Assembly (NCBI GenBank): GCA_018335855.1 | Contig: JAGXRM010000010.1 | Span: forward strand, 62,001-126,000 | Direction of reading: 5' to 3' | Length of the DNA stretch: 64,000 nt | Source of the DNA: Clostridiales bacterium | GTDB lineage: Bacteria > Bacillota > Dethiobacteria > Dethiobacterales > Dethiobacteraceae | Part shown: positions 2,272-63,398 of the stretch, in pieces | Layout of the letters: every line of letters begins with the position of its first letter | Position numbering within the stretch: position 1 is the first letter of the stretch | Notes under the pieces: generated by a model | The model's database searches: none | What the model was told of the DNA's origin: nothing | Seen by the model: the letters and a program-made list of their open reading frames with translations, nothing else | Translations under genes and position numbers: made by a program

Positions 2272-3300
2272 TTATATGCCTGATGCTGATCGTCGGGTTG
2301 AGATTAAGGTATGGGTGATTTTATCTAACTGTTCCAGGGCGCGGCCTGTACCTTTGGCGACACAGGCAATGGGGTCTTCCGCCAAATAGACGGGAACGCC
2401 GGTTTCTACTGTGAGTAGCTTGTCGAGGCCGTTTAGTAAAGCACCGCCACCGGTCATAATGATACCATGCTGGACGATGTCCCCGGCCAGTTCAGGAGGA
2501 GTAATCTCCAGGACATGTTTAACGCATTCAATCATTGCTTCCAGAGGTTCCTGGACAGCTTCCAGGACGTGTTCCGTACGGGCCTGGAATGAACGGGGCA
2601 GGCCGGAGACCATATCGCGGCCCCGGATTTCCATTTCTGTGGACCGGTGGTTTGGATATGCGCTGCCCACTTCAATTTTGAGTGCTTCGGATGTCCGTTC
2701 GCCGATGAGCAGGTTAAACTCTTTTTTAATAAAGCGGGCGATGGCTTCATCGAATTTGTCGCCGCCGACACGGACACTTTCCGTCACGACTGTTTCCCCC
2801 AGGGAAAGAACGGCCACGTCGGTGGTGCCACCACCGATATCAATGACCATATGGCCGCTGGGCTGGAAGATGTCAAGACCGGCACCGAGCGCGGCGGCTC
2901 GGGGCTCTTCTATTAAGAAGGCGTCACGGACACCGGAGCGGACTACCGCTTCAATGACTGCTTTTTGTTCCACAGTGGTGGTGGCGGCCGGAATGCAGAC
3001 GATGACCCGGGGACGCAGAAGCCGACGGCGGTCACATACTTTGGCAATGAAGTGGCGCAGCATAATCTCTGTGATTTCAAAATCTGCGATCACGCCTTCC
3101 CGTAAGGGGCGGATGGCAATAATGTTGCCGGGAGTCCGTCCGAGCATGCGCTGTGCCGCTTCGCCTACGGCCAGTACCTGGCGGGTGTGTTGTTCAATTG
3201 CAACGACGGAAGGTTCATGCAGGACAATTCCTTTGCCACGGAGGTGGACGAGTACCGTAGCTGTACCCAGGTCAATTCCCATGTCGGTTCCAAGATTCAT
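2272..3300 (-). CDS. mbl: MreB/Mbl family cell-shape protein
   Basis: Actin-like ATPase of the MreB family, about 342 residues from the chosen ATG at 3300 (AGAGGTG ribosome binding site). An upstream in-frame extension lacks homology. Actin-fold signatures are visible: MGIDLGTATVLV (phosphate 1), IDIGGGTTDVAVLS (phosphate 2) and IIMTGGGALLNGL (adenosine motif). These proteins form membrane-bound filaments guiding lateral wall synthesis. Position just downstream of spoIIID is the B. subtilis spoIIID-mbl arrangement, which favours Mbl over MreB. Confidence 0.93.
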   Translation of the reverse strand: MNLGTDMGIDLGTATVLVHLRGKGIVLHEPSVVAIEQHTRQVLAVGEAAQRMLGRTPGNIIAIRPLREGVIADFEITEIMLRHFIAKVCDRRRLLRPRVIVCIPAATTTVEQKAVIEAVVRSGVRDAFLIEEPRAAALGAGLDIFQPSGHMVIDIGGGTTDVAVLSLGETVVTESVRVGGDKFDEAIARFIKKEFNLLIGERTSEALKIEVGSAYPNHRSTEMEIRGRDMVSGLPRSFQARTEHVLEAVQEPLEAMIECVKHVLEITPPELAGDIVQHGIIMTGGGALLNGLDKLLTVETGVPVYLAEDPIACVAKGTGRALEQLDKITHTLISTRRSASGI

Positions 3301-3401
3301 TATTGCTTCACCTCTTTGCAGAGCTTGTACCACAGTTTGGTAATTAACCAACTTTATTCGTCAGTTGGTGGGCTTTTCCTTTTTTTCTGTTTTTATTTTC
3401 T

Positions 3402-12095: not shown

Positions 12096-12155
12096 TACGC
12101 AAACACCCCTTTGGTATCTATTTTAAAATAGTATTACCAAAAGCAGGAATATTAT

Positions 12156-12220
12156 TTGCAACCCGGGGACGGTTCCTAATTTGCAAAACTGCAACACCAG
12201 GGACGGTTCTCAAGTTGCAT
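12156..12220 (+). repeat. Two REP units beside the RAYT gene
   Basis: Two direct units about 33 bp apart, each of the form TTGCAACnCCnGGGACGGTTC...TTGCA. They lie immediately past the 3' end of the transposase gene, inverted relative to the array at 13185. Confidence 0.85.
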
Positions 12221-12221
12221 A

Positions 12222-13007
12222 CTACGAACGATAAACCATAGACTTGCTTATCCCAAGCAAATCAGACAGTTCTTGCACAGTTACCTGGGAACTCTGTCTG
12301 ATTTCACGTATTACTCTGGTGCGAATACCGGCATATCCCCTTTCTTTTAGCATTTCAGGCTTAACATTATATTTTGTCAGCACATGGCTGATTGTCGTTT
12401 TTGCTTCGACAAGCCGCTCTTCTTTGTCATCTTTTCCGTCAATATCCAGGAATATATCTTCATTTCCTGTACTTGAAAATCTGATAAACTCTTTTTTGGC
12501 AATTGCCTTATCCTCACTAAACAGGCCTAGAATAAATTCTTTATCTAACAGTCCCGGAGCATTGCTATCCTGCAAATAGGCAGAGTAGCTGCACCAGGGG
12601 TATTGTATCGGATGTGTAACCATTCCCGCCTTTTTTGCATTGTCATGAATATACCTTATGCATGCCAGCAAATACTCCAATGTTAAAATTTCCTCACTTT
12701 TGAAACGATCCTGAAACAGATGCCCTACTCTTTCGTATTTCCAGTTAATAAAATTTACAAAACGGATACCGATACGTTTCATAGAGTTGGATAATACATC
12801 ATTCTTTTCTTTAATCAAAAGATGAACATGATTGGGCATCAAGCAGTATGCATAAAGTTCAAACATATCGTCCTGTTTAATATTCAGTAATATTTCAAGG
12901 TATTTCCTTTTATCCTGTTTGTCAAAAAAGAGCTCTGATTTGTTAATGCCCCTTACCATGACGTGGTAAACACCGGTTTGGCTTCTCTGCCTTGGCCCTC
13001 TTGGCAT
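12222..13007 (-). CDS. REP-associated tyrosine transposase (Y1/RAYT) with C-terminal HTH
   Basis: 261 residues. The Y1_Tnp (HUH-type) domain spans about 1-150: GVYHVMVRGINKSELFF start, the metal-binding HUH motif NHVHLLI, and Tyr residues around YIHDNAKKAG. The C-terminus adds a helix-turn-helix (VTVQELSDLLGISKSMVY). RAYTs cut and move REP hairpins as single strands. The gene is bracketed by REP units in inverted orientation, as expected for an active or recently active pair. GGAAAGGAAG precedes the ATG. Confidence 0.9.
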   Translation of the reverse strand: MPRGPRQRSQTGVYHVMVRGINKSELFFDKQDKRKYLEILLNIKQDDMFELYAYCLMPNHVHLLIKEKNDVLSNSMKRIGIRFVNFINWKYERVGHLFQDRFKSEEILTLEYLLACIRYIHDNAKKAGMVTHPIQYPWCSYSAYLQDSNAPGLLDKEFILGLFSEDKAIAKKEFIRFSSTGNEDIFLDIDGKDDKEERLVEAKTTISHVLTKYNVKPEMLKERGYAGIRTRVIREIRQSSQVTVQELSDLLGISKSMVYRS

Positions 13008-13184
13008 AAAAACACTTCCTTTCCATAGCAGAATGTATATGACTATATAATTTCAATAAATTGTAATAAATTCCTGCAAGAACAGGAACATTTGTTCGTA
13101 TTTTTTCAGCCCGGAATTGCCTGGGATGCAGTTGTTTGTTTTTTCCAGCCCGAGAACCCGTCTAGGGCTGCACAGTTTACCATC

Positions 13185-13287
13185 TTTGCAAATCGGAAAC
13201 CGTCCCCGAGGTTGCAGTTTTGCAAATCGGGAACCGTCCCCGGGGTTGCAGTTTTGCAAATCAGGAACCGTCCCCGGGGTTGCAAAG
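13185..13287 (-). repeat. Three tandem REP units
   Basis: Three units of 33-34 bp, each reading on the plus strand TTTGCAAATC..GAACCGTCCCCGGGGTTGCA with small differences. They are the reverse complement of the units at 12156, so the arrays face each other across the RAYT gene. The stretch 13008-13184 between gene and repeats shows nothing else recognisable. Confidence 0.9.
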
Positions 13288-31503: not shown

Positions 31504-32688
31504 TTGACTTTGATATATTTTGATTGTTTTGCCGGGGCCAGCGGCGATATGCTGCTGGCGGCGCTGCTTGATGCAGGCGCTCCGCTGGATACAGTCCGGG
31601 CGGAGCTGGCTAAACTGCCTATTCGTGGCTTCACATTAGAAACAACCCGTGTAATGAAACGCGGGCTGAGTGCTTTGGATGTCACTGTGAATGTTGAGGA
31701 AAAAGATCAGCCCCACCGTCACTTTCGGGACATTGAAAATTTGCTCCTTAATAGTAATCTCTCCCCGGCCGTTGGTGAAATGAGCCTGGCGGTGTTTACG
31801 CGTCTGGCAGCTGCGGAAGGAAAAATACATAATAAACCCACGAAGGATGTTCACTTTCACGAAGTGGGCGCCGTGGACTCTATTGTGGATATTGTCGGCA
31901 TTGCAGCGGCACTCCATGCGCTTGGTGCCACGGCAATCCACGCCTCGCCGGTTCATGTGGGGACAGGCTTTGTCCAGTGTGCCCACGGCTTACTGCCGGT
32001 CCCCGCACCGGCCACCATGGAACTTTTACAGGGCGTTCCTGTTTATTCCCGAGGTATTGAGGCTGAACTGCTAACGCCTACCGGCGCTGCTGTCCTTGCC
32101 CAACTGGCTCAGTTTGGACCGCTACCGCCGATGCGGATTAAAAGCACAGGGTACGGTGCCGGCAAAAAGGATCTGGCAATCGCCAATCTGCTGCGGGTCA
32201 TCGTTGGAGAAAATGATATCAGGGAAAGCGCACTGCCACAAGAAGACGTCATCGTGCTGGAAGCCAATATTGACGATATGAACCCGGAGTTTTACGGTCA
32301 TGTTATGGAGATGTTGTTTGCCGCCGACGTCCTGGATGTTTACCTGTCTCCGCTACAGATGAAAAAAAACCGTCCCGCCGTCCTGCTCCGTGTCCTTGTC
32401 AGGCCGCAGCAGGAAAAAGAAGCGTTAACAATTCTGCTGCGTGAAACAACGACTCTCGGTGTCCGCCGTTTCCAGGGAGAAAAAATCATGCTCCCCCGTA
32501 AACACGTGACCGTCCAAACACCATACGGCTCCGCCCGCGTCAAAGTTGCCGAACTGGGCGGCACGGAAATCAATGCCGTCCCCGAATACGAAGACTGCCT
32601 CAAACTAGCCAAAGCCCATAACATCCCCCTCAAAGAAATCTACCTCACCGTATCCGAAACCTATCGCCAAACCCGGGGTCAGGTTTAA
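31504..32688 (+). CDS. larC: Nickel-pincer cofactor synthesis protein LarC
   Basis: 394 residues as one continuous frame; in Lactobacillus plantarum the gene needs a programmed frameshift, not needed here. N-terminal LIYFDCFAGASGDMLLAAL, a His-rich VHFHEVGAVDSI, and a C-terminal ferredoxin-like half. LarC inserts nickel into the pincer ligand using CTP. TTG start. The final residues RGQV are encoded inside a dispersed repeat (32673-32693) that also ends thiI. Confidence 0.95.
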   Translation: MTLIYFDCFAGASGDMLLAALLDAGAPLDTVRAELAKLPIRGFTLETTRVMKRGLSALDVTVNVEEKDQPHRHFRDIENLLLNSNLSPAVGEMSLAVFTRLAAAEGKIHNKPTKDVHFHEVGAVDSIVDIVGIAAALHALGATAIHASPVHVGTGFVQCAHGLLPVPAPATMELLQGVPVYSRGIEAELLTPTGAAVLAQLAQFGPLPPMRIKSTGYGAGKKDLAIANLLRVIVGENDIRESALPQEDVIVLEANIDDMNPEFYGHVMEMLFAADVLDVYLSPLQMKKNRPAVLLRVLVRPQQEKEALTILLRETTTLGVRRFQGEKIMLPRKHVTVQTPYGSARVKVAELGGTEINAVPEYEDCLKLAKAHNIPLKEIYLTVSETYRQTRGQV

Positions 32689-32723
32689 CAATTGACCGAC
32701 ATAATTCTTTCATAATCATGAAA
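32673..32723 (+). repeat. 3'-end repeat, copy in larC
   Basis: GGGGTCAGGTTTAACAATT plus the following TAATTCTTTCA..AAT..TGAAA closely match 62191-62238. It supplies the last four codons and the stop of larC. Confidence 0.8.
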
Positions 32724-32765
32724 CAAAACGATCAACCAATCCCTGGTTGATCGTTTTGTTTCATG
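32718..32765. terminator. Bidirectional terminator between larC and larE
   Basis: Perfect 21-bp arms (32718-32737/8 and 32745-32765, ATGAAACAAAACGATCAACC and complement) with a 7-nt loop. Each arm ends in an A/T-rich stretch, suiting termination in both directions. Confidence 0.8.
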
Positions 32766-32773
32766 CCAAGAAA

Positions 32774-32796
32774 ATATTAAAGGTGCTGACCCCGGG
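32774..32796 (-). repeat. 3'-end repeat, variant copy in larE
   Basis: Minus-strand CCGGGGTCAGCACCTTTAAT matches the larC/thiI element at its first ten bases and more loosely after. It encodes the RGQ of LarE's C-terminus and faces the larC copy as an inverted pair. Confidence 0.65.
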
Positions 32797-33604
32797 GGAG
32801 GACTTCGTTCATGGAACCAGTGCGGTAGCCGGCGAGGTCAAGGGTGATATAGGTGAAGCCGATTTGTCTGAAGTGGGGGACGATTTGGGTGGTGAGGGTA
32901 ACGGCGTCTTGCAGGCGGTCGGACGGGAGTTCGATGCGGGCGGTGTCGCCATGATGACGGACGCGTAATTGAGCAAAGCCCAGTGAGCGCAGGAAGCGTT
33001 CGGCGGCGGCTACCTGTGCCACTTTTTCTTTGGTAATCGGCTGGCCGTAGGGGAAACGGGATGAAAGGCAGGCCATCGCCGGTTTATTCCAGTTTTCCAG
33101 GCCAAGGTAGAGGGCCAACGCTCTTACGTCTTTTTTGGTAAAGCCGGCTTCGCGGAGCGGGCTGCGTACTCCAAGTTCCGCCGCCGCTTTCATGCCGGGA
33201 CGCCAGTCGCCTGTGTCATCCACGTTGGAGCCGTCGGCAACAAACTGAAAGCCTTGGGATGTGGCTAAAGCTGACAGTTTGCCGAAAAGTTCTTTTTTAC
33301 AGTGGTAACATCGTTCCGGTGGATTTTCAGAGAAACCGGGAATCGCCAGTTCTTCTGTCTCCAGTACTGTAAACAGAACGTCCAGTTTAGCCGCCAGGTT
33401 TTTTGCCACTGCCAGTTCCTCGGACAGATATGTTTCCGATACGGCGGTTACAGCTAACACCCTGTCCTTCGCCAGAACACCGGCTGCTGCGGCCAGTAAT
33501 ACGGATGAGTCCACTCCTCCGGAGAAGGCGACAACCACACTTTTCATTTCCAGTAAAATTTTTTCGAGCTTTTCCTTCTTCTCCATAATTGGATGTGTCA
33601 ACAT
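32777..33604 (-). CDS. larE: ATP-dependent sacrificial sulfur transferase LarE
   Basis: 275 residues. PP-loop FSGGVDSS (28-34); the sulfur-donating Cys is C179 in MACLSSRFPYG, equivalent to C176 of L. plantarum LarE, so it is the single-use cysteine type. Converts the two carboxylates to thiocarboxylates. Also present is a CYHCKK motif (99-104), usual in the family. Convergent with larBC instead of co-directional. GAGGTGATCC precedes the ATG. Confidence 0.95.
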   Translation of the reverse strand: MLTHPIMEKKEKLEKILLEMKSVVVAFSGGVDSSVLLAAAAGVLAKDRVLAVTAVSETYLSEELAVAKNLAAKLDVLFTVLETEELAIPGFSENPPERCYHCKKELFGKLSALATSQGFQFVADGSNVDDTGDWRPGMKAAAELGVRSPLREAGFTKKDVRALALYLGLENWNKPAMACLSSRFPYGQPITKEKVAQVAAAERFLRSLGFAQLRVRHHGDTARIELPSDRLQDAVTLTTQIVPHFRQIGFTYITLDLAGYRTGSMNEVLPRGQHL

Positions 33605-38456: not shown

Positions 38457-38518
38457 TGCAACCCGGGGACGGTTCTCAAGTTGCAAGTCTGCAACTTGAG
38501 AACCGTCCCCGGGTTGCA
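38457..38518. repeat. Perfect 29-bp REP palindrome
   Basis: Arms 38457-38485 and 38490-38518 are exact reverse complements around loop AGTC. Each arm is a REP unit (core GGGGACGGTTC) of the family that surrounds the RAYT gene at 12.2-13.3 kb. It sits between the divergent sigG and nikR promoters. Confidence 0.95.
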
Positions 38519-59350: not shown

Positions 59351-59495
59351 GAAAAAAACCACTTCTGAGAAAAGAAGAGGTTCATGTGCCGCTCTTCTTA
59401 TCTCCCAGGATTGCTCCTGCGGGAATTGGCACCTTCCAGTCTGCGCTGGGGTTGCCGGGCTTCATCGGGCCAGTCCCTCTGCCTCTCTTGATAAG
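59351..59495 (-). promoter_or_regulatory. SAM-I (S-box) riboswitch
   Basis: Minus strand from CTTATCAAGAGAGGCAGAGG, through GACTGGCCCGATGAAGCCCG and AAGGTGCCAATTCC, to GATAAGAAGAG. A terminator hairpin ACCTCTTCT...AGAAGTGGT followed by TTTTTT competes with pairing of AAGAAGAG to CTCTTCTT, giving SAM-dependent termination ahead of metY-metX. Confidence 0.96.
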
Positions 59496-59621
59496 ATTCT
59501 ATAAGTTTTTTCATTACCACTTAATCTATATGTTAACTATGATAACAGGGATGACGTTCATTGTCAACGAATAAAAAGAGAATTTCTTCCCAACAATTAC
59601 CACAAAGATTGTGAAGGAATC

Positions 59622-62134: not shown

Positions 62135-62153
62135 CTTATTAAGCCAGTATTTA

Positions 62154-62188
62154 AAGAACCCCGAGCCAAAACTCGGGGTTCTTTTTTT
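62154..62188 (+). terminator. Terminator of serC-aspC
   Basis: AAGAACCCCGAG, loop CCAAAA, CTCGGGGTTCTT then TTTTT. Confidence 0.9.
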
Positions 62189-62190
62189 GC

Positions 62191-62238
62191 GTTTTCACAT
62201 TGTGAAAGAATTAGGTTAATTGTTAAACCTGACCCCGG
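62191..62238 (-). repeat. 3'-end repeat, copy in thiI
   Basis: Same element as 32673-32723: identical over 21 bases at the stop codon (core GGGGTCAGGTTTAACAATT), then TAATTCTTTCACAATGTGAAA. Codes for thiI's final RGQV. Confidence 0.8.
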
Positions 62239-63398
62239 ATTTCGATGGTTTCGGTTTTTTCCAGGCTTTCTGTGACAAGGGCTTCGATGTCCAGGGCTTT
62301 TTCGGCTTCTTCGACATCAGCGAGGCGGGGTCGGGTAACTGGGAATTCGGGGAGAAAGACGGTACAGCAGTCCTCATAGGGGCGGATGGAGATATCGTAA
62401 GTGTCGATGCGGCGGGAAATATTGACGATTTCTTCTTTGTCCATGCCGATGAGGGGCCGAAAGACCGGGATTGTCGTGACATGTTCAATCACGTGGATGC
62501 TTTCCATGGTCTGGCTGGCTACCTGACCCAGGCTTTCCCCGGTAATCAGGGCCAGGGCACCCCGTTGTTCCGCCAGTCGCTCTGCGATACGGAACATCAT
62601 GCGGCGCATCAGTGTTACTGTCAGCTTTTCCGGGCACTTTAACCGCAACTCCTTTTGAATTTCAGTGAAGTGAGCCACATGGAGAAGGATTTTACCGCCG
62701 TAACCCGTAAGAACCCGGGTAAGGTCGACCACTTTCTCTTTAGCACGCTCGCTGGTAAAGGGAAAACTGTGGAAATGGAGTGCCTCCAGCGTTACTCCAC
62801 GCTTCATTGTCATCCAGCCGGCAACAGGACTGTCGATACCGCCGGAAATGAGGAGCAGCCCTTTTCCGGATGCACCAACGGGCAAGCCTCCCGGCCCCGG
62901 GATACGTTGTGTATAGATATATGTTTCATGATCCCGGATTTCCACATCAAGAACCTGGTCTGGGTGATGGACGTCCACAGTCAGGCCGGGTACATGGTCC
63001 AGCAGGTACTCACCCACATCCCTGCTGACTTCGGGAGAGCGCAGGGGAAAGCGTTTGTTGGCCCGTTTTGTCTCCACTTTAAAGGTCATGCCGGGTTTGG
63101 CCACTTTGCCCAGCTCCCGGGCTGCGACCGCTTTAATACTCTCTATGTCCAATTCCGCAATAGCCACCGGGCTGAGGGAAACGATGCCGAAGACTTGCTG
63201 TAGCCGACGAATCACAGCAGCCGTATCACCTTCCAGCACTTCCACAAAATTACGTCCGCGGTACTGCTGGATACGACATTCGGCAATGCCGAGCAAGCTT
63301 CTTTTAATATTGGCTGTCAGTTTATTCTCAAAAAACTTCCTGTTTTTTCCCTTAAGGCCAATTTCACCGTAACGGATTAAGAGTAATGCTTTCATCAT
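62223..63398 (-). CDS. thiI: tRNA 4-thiouridine synthetase ThiI
   Basis: 391 residues: ferredoxin-like and THUMP domains (1-165), then a PP-loop ATPase (LISGGIDSPVAGW) with YEDCCTVFLP. No C-terminal rhodanese domain, as in most Bacillota. Transfers sulfur to U8 of tRNA. ATG 63398 or 63395; GGAGG is part of the desulfurase stop region. Pairs with the cysteine desulfurase upstream. Confidence 0.96.
   Translation of the reverse strand: MMKALLLIRYGEIGLKGKNRKFFENKLTANIKRSLLGIAECRIQQYRGRNFVEVLEGDTAAVIRRLQQVFGIVSLSPVAIAELDIESIKAVAARELGKVAKPGMTFKVETKRANKRFPLRSPEVSRDVGEYLLDHVPGLTVDVHHPDQVLDVEIRDHETYIYTQRIPGPGGLPVGASGKGLLLISGGIDSPVAGWMTMKRGVTLEALHFHSFPFTSERAKEKVVDLTRVLTGYGGKILLHVAHFTEIQKELRLKCPEKLTVTLMRRMMFRIAERLAEQRGALALITGESLGQVASQTMESIHVIEHVTTIPVFRPLIGMDKEEIVNISRRIDTYDISIRPYEDCCTVFLPEFPVTRPRLADVEEAEKALDIEALVTESLEKTETIEIRGQV

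Follow-up and report, generated by a model that had tools for sequence, protein, structure and literature searches.

A dispersed repeat at the 3' ends of larC, thiI and other genes of a Dethiobacteraceae bacterium resembles the terminal repeats of TIRYT-type transposases

Results

Repeat arms at the ends of larC, larE and thiI

The window (the whole stretch of 64,000 nucleotides that was analyzed) contains the convergent genes larC and larE as well as thiI. The following features were assigned.

31504 to 32688, plus strand: larC (Ni_insertion, PF01969), protein tail ...TYRQTRGQV
32675 to 32724, plus strand: larC 3'-end repeat arm GGGGTCAGGTTTAACAATTGACCGACATAATTCTTTCATAATCATGAAAC, source of the larC stop TAA (32686 to 32688) and the tail RGQV
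32717 to 32765, unstranded: perfect 22-bp hairpin between the larC and larE arms
32766 to 32793, minus strand: larE 3'-end arm, diverged and mirrored (GGGGTCAG-CACCTTTAATATTTTC...), source of the larE stop (32777 to 32779) and the tail PRGQHL
32777 to 33604, minus strand: larE (ATP-pyrophosphatase family), protein tail ...SMNEVLPRGQHL
62153 to 62184, unstranded: terminator hairpin adjoining the thiI arm, with no sequence relationship to the hairpin between larC and larE
62189 to 62236, minus strand: thiI 3'-end repeat arm GGGGTCAGGTTTAACAATTAACCTAATTCTTTCACAATGTGAAAACGC, source of the thiI stop and the tail RGQV
62223 to 63398, minus strand: thiI (PF02568), protein tail ...TETIEIRGQV (sister species, ...TETIEIKH)

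A sequence-only reading of the window had reported that LarC and ThiI end in RGQV and LarE in RGQHL, which was confirmed: larC and thiI both read CGG GGT CAG GTT TAA, and larE reads CGG GGT CAG CAC CTT TAA. The identity over 21 nucleotides claimed for the first two genes was also found, with CCGGGGTCAGGTTTAACAATT present at the larC end (32673 to 32693, plus strand) and at the thiI end (62218 to 62238, minus strand); a 29-nt stretch of these ends was 93% alike. When a 19-mer was searched with up to three mismatches, these were the sole matches in the window (2 found, 0.03 expected). The similar block noticed further downstream is real as well, and its sequence TAATTCTTTCAnAATnnTGAAA is common to 13 genomic copies.

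The reading had placed the same element at all three stop codons. This stood for larC and thiI, and larE is the weak member of the three. Its arm matches the family over the first 8 bases only (GGGGTCAG, 32793 to 32786, minus strand) and then diverges as CACCTTTAATATT, but it is located where a mirrored arm would be expected, on the far side of the 22-bp hairpin, and we regard it as a diverged arm of the family. LarE orthologues in four relatives end in ...SMNEVL, so that PRGQHL is an addition. The 22-bp hairpin probably serves both convergent genes as a terminator; a strict consensus terminator scan did not flag it.

The repeat family in the genome and in relatives

The genome that contains the window (G000, 2.96 Mb) was compared with a sister species of the same genus (G001) with the relatives G002, G005, G010 and G012, and with G004 and G017. 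In G000 the 19-mer matched 14 sites exactly and 44 when up to three mismatches were allowed, compared with 2 sites for a reversed control pattern, which supports the proposal of a dispersed, mobile-type repeat. G001 contained zero copies, and the exact 19-mer was found in none of 84,980 other species genomes. Variants with a common GGGGTCAGGTTT core were detected in G005, G010 and G012 (reversed controls 0, 0 and 3, respectively).

Two classes of copies were distinguished. Class A arms (consensus GGGGTCAGGYTTAACAWTTRACCTAATYCTTTCRCATnATGAAA) usually precede a unique hairpin and are often mirrored at the convergent gene, whereas class B copies are 78-nt palindromes with similar loops, which are sometimes tandem-nested. 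Paired arms have private variants in common (GACG/GACG, GGCTT/GGCTT). The repeat occurs dispersed as singles, dimers and clusters, as do the terminal inverted repeat (TIR) families associated with TIRYTs. The single arm did not fold better as RNA than shuffled sequences (z = 0.01 and -1.55) and showed no conserved fold. When the literature was searched for the core sequence, the matches listed were all unrelated. An integron attC site was also considered, since GTTTAAC...GTTAAAC fits RYYYAAC/GTTRRRY; it was ruled out by the relatives' variants, which break the pattern, and, on sequence and general knowledge, by the host genes, which are core genes with copies in both orientations. The repeat had no match in Rfam; the one Rfam hit was a SAM riboswitch (RF00162) at 59395 to 59497 of the window, minus strand.

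Comparison with repeat-free gene ends of the sister species

One search with joined C-terminal pieces of the host proteins located 19 host-gene ends in G001, to which thiI was added. All of the roughly 20 ends were repeat-free, clean native ends. Where the arm lies after the stop codon in G000, the protein tails match those of the sister, as in the HtrA-like protein (...PESIN), FtsY (...TQD/AQN) and the protein at locus L083 (...MRPL). Where the arm overlaps the gene, only the last few residues are replaced: KH by RGQV in ThiI (EIKH to EIRGQV), AAKE by GQV in RecN (LRAAKE to LRGQV), PSRS by RGQV in the YitT-like protein, NRN by TRGQV in IspF and H by PGGQV in the product of the RIEL gene. The suggestion that the element changes protein tails at gene 3' ends is borne out by these sister orthologues, which lack both the repeat and the RGQ tail. 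Eighty ThiI tails from other Bacillota had no RGQ end. RGQ ends of distant orthologues, which had been named as evidence against an inserted element, were encountered once, in ThiI of G012, and that tail stems from the same type of repeat.

In a separate case (L084 2431, G000:C7:42431), a ThiS/MoaD-like protein, assigned to this family by eye only, ends in ...AIAGGQPGSGLTFNVILSHRETKMAD because a repeat copy lengthens it. Its ...AIAGG is the usual end of the family, and the Gly-Gly would be masked unless processed.

Position, orientation and reading frame of the copies

The sequence-only reading had proposed scoring the copies for position relative to stop codons and for reading frame, and both were biased. 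The analysis covered 92 outer arms from four genomes in the sequence stretches around repeat matches, with genes called by simple ORF rules. Outer arms started within -12 to +19 nt of a same-strand stop codon in 42 of the 92 cases, compared with 10% for random placements within the same loci (p~1e-18). The GGGG end faced the stop codon in 53 cases and the far end in 10. The 29 in-gene copies were distributed over the three frames as 20:9:0, the commonest protein end being GQV (p = 3e-5); the stop codon is provided by TTTAA or TTTGA 11 nt inside the repeat, which yields xGQV followed by stop. Given these simple gene calls and the incomplete independence of the copies, the p values are indicative. 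The frame bias probably reflects purifying selection. Such a gene-end habit is unusually strict for a TIR repeat.

Some copies lie beside gene starts, where they adjoin the ribosome-binding site (L177, L178, L194, L197 and L200 in relatives and L070 in G000). In these copies CCTGACCCC is placed immediately 5' of a purine-rich stretch, and the GGGG end thus points towards genes at 5' ends too.

Recurrence at the same gene ends

Several host genes, some of them named from their sequences by eye, carry a copy in more than one genus: thiI, ispF, nadE and the RIEL gene in G000 and G012; ftsY, ispF and the L071 gene in G000 and G010; proS in G005 and G010; and ecfT in G005 and G012. Such sharing exceeded expectation: of about nine copy-bearing gene ends in G012, four were occupied in G000 as well (hypergeometric p about 1e-4 to 1e-6). 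The copies start at the same nucleotide in thiI and ispF (G000 and G012) and in ecfT (G005 and G012). In ispF each copy is its own genome's variant, while the thiI copy of G012 resembles the G000 variant. For ftsY, nadE and the RIEL gene, the copies of different genera are offset by several to about 18 nt. In G004 and G017 (L126, L127), the thiI end lies inside a GGGGACGGTTC palindrome of another repeat family and the tail reads HGDGSGG. Hot spots for several families and retention with concerted change both fit this recurrence.

A transposase flanked by related repeats

In G002, G005 and G010 a Y1 transposase of 302 to 308 residues is flanked by inverted GGGGTCAGG repeats and always lies between fdhF and fdhD. 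The three proteins are 43 to 47% identical and combine Y1_Tnp with a C-terminal stretch resembling Bac_DnaA_C (E = 1.3e-5, 1.5e-5 and 1.1e-7); the curated Bac_DnaA_C cut-off was passed by the G002 protein only. G012 retains a decayed, internally deleted RAYT remnant upstream of fdhD (L314, about 2995 to 3346, minus strand), in the place that the intact genes occupy in G002, G005 and G010. In G000, fdhD has a repeat copy alone, on its 5' side. No RAYT flanked by the larC/thiI-type repeat was found in the 60 contigs of G000, although the assembly may have a gap there; the two RAYTs of this genome, one of them at 12222 to 13007 of the window, are flanked by GGGGACGGTTC repeats. With no matching transposase in G000 and only remnants in G012, the family looks orphaned in G000.

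The TIRs of TIRYTs have the motif GGGGWSAS in common and make up dispersed families of moderate abundance (Di Nocera et al. 2013, PMC3733652); GGGGTCAG fits GGGG-W-S-A-S. RAYT subclass 2.1 carries DnaA_C-like domains (PMC6006769). We therefore assign the repeat to a TIR/REP-like family of the TIRYT kind, where TIRYT corresponds to RAYT group 1 and TnpA_REP subclass 2.1. In one survey, no REP-like sequences were found near a RAYT group 1 (subclass 2.1) gene (PMC6006769).

Discussion

The best explanation, to which we give a probability of roughly 80%, is a non-autonomous TIR/REP-like family that was dispersed into gene-end junctions by a TIRYT-type Y1 transposase. A group 1 transposase, which three related genera retain between fdhF and fdhD, would have copied arms of 30 to 45 nt, singly or as inverted pairs. 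The target would be the junction of a coding sequence with the spacer or terminator that follows it, the GGGG end of the arm pointing to the gene. The IS200/IS605 relatives are known to insert as single-stranded DNA, which may apply to this family as well. An arm landing just past the stop codon would leave the protein unchanged. If it lands a few codons before the stop, selection would mainly keep the frame that closes quickly as xGQV, and the last 1 to 6 residues would be exchanged for (R/W/G)GQV. The native terminator would remain downstream of the inserted arm. A transposase of the fdhD-linked type probably moved the copies in G000 too, where the gene is now missing; as this genome lacks a RAYT flanked by the family, we infer mobility here. 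The plain insertion model leaves unexplained the consistent facing of GGGG towards the gene and the occupancy of the same nucleotide across genera.

Strongly structured or single-stranded 3' ends of transcription units could be insertion hot spots that attract several RAYT families independently, a reading with slightly less than an even chance of being right. It would account for the thiI end, where two genera have a copy of the GGGGTCAG type, and G004 and G017 the GGGGACGGTTC palindrome. Element-bearing ends were also more often convergent than other ends (9/20 versus 60/303, p = 0.02), but the excess was not significant for ends with a gap of >60 nt (p = 0.10), and terminators were not significantly more frequent at repeat ends. 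The hot-spot reading refines the transposase-driven dispersal and does not replace it.

It is unlikely that the arms are selected 3'-end signals, acting in mRNA stability, translation termination or supercoiling, which predate the split of the genera and were homogenized by gene conversion or transposase-mediated replacement. Such signals would fit the prevailing gene-to-spacer direction of the arms, the private variants common to paired arms, the gene ends shared by G012 and G000, and the same-nucleotide copies in thiI, ispF and ecfT, of which those in ispF nevertheless match their own genome's variant. They are harder to reconcile with G001, which has none and whose native ends are intact, with the shifted positions at ftsY, nadE and the RIEL gene, and with the lack of a conserved RNA fold in the single arm. 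A further, rather doubtful reading is that the ends of thiI, ispF, nadE, RIEL, ftsY, ecfT and proS are slots, persistently or repeatedly occupied across genera, which the RAYT system refills or converts time and again, sometimes with genus-specific variants, perhaps because the oriented arm aids the end of translation or mRNA protection.

The sequence-only reading had also considered that the element adds terminators, and a mobile terminator spreading with its own hairpin would explain why most copies adjoin a terminator-like hairpin. However, these hairpins are unrelated to each other and lie outside the repeat. Where the neighborhood is conserved they have counterparts in the element-free sister: the terminators of the rodA/ftsW-like gene, recN and the RIEL gene look orthologous by eye. 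Nor did terminators occur significantly more often at ends with a repeat than at other spaced gene ends. The mobile-terminator reading is therefore largely refuted and very improbable. The number of copies and the comparison with the sister refute chance similarity or a conserved RGQ motif in the proteins; the excess of window matches over expectation and the ThiI tails of other Bacillota also speak against it, and its probability is negligible.

As in the TIRtron/TIRYT systems (PMC3733652), a transposase gene lies between inverted GGGGWSAS-type repeats in the relatives, and the repeats also form singles, dimers and clusters. The published families are described as moderately abundant and dispersed, whereas the copies here keep closely to stop codons, mostly point in one direction and shape the tails of proteins; in addition, TIRtrons contain the transposase, which G000 lacks. 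The GTAG REPs of gammaproteobacterial RAYTs are likewise short repeats dispersed between convergent and unidirectional genes, and their termini "often provide" a TAG stop codon (PMC3733652). The arms described here have no GTAG tag, and no REP hairpin forms in the single arm. Stop codons from GTAG REPs have already been published; the repeated occupancy of the same sites is the unusual part. The class B 78-nt palindromic doublets with similar loops resemble REPINs, which are inverted REP doublets. Class A pairs, in contrast, enclose unrelated native-looking terminators, so that the pair with its spacer is unlike one transposed unit. Residues are likewise added to proteins by Rickettsia palindromic elements and intragenic MITEs, which are located inside ORFs and in frame (general knowledge and background in PMC3733652); the present repeats terminate the frame at the 3' end.

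On these sequence comparisons, the little-studied RAYT group 1 (subclass 2.1) gains a set of scattered partner repeats together with a conserved gene address. The strong orientation at stop codons and the same-site occupancy across genera make target choice testable. For annotators, identical C-termini of unrelated proteins can be footprints of mobile elements.

A second REP family in the window

The window also holds a second REP family. It consists of 34-nt repeats in tandem, built of the core GGGGACGGTTC and stems of TTTGCAA, at 12155 to 13286, which flank the following gene.

12222 to 13007, minus strand: RAYT gene (Y1_Tnp), flanked by GGGGACGGTTC repeats

A further perfect 29-bp palindrome of this family is located at 38457 to 38518, upstream of a NikR-like gene.
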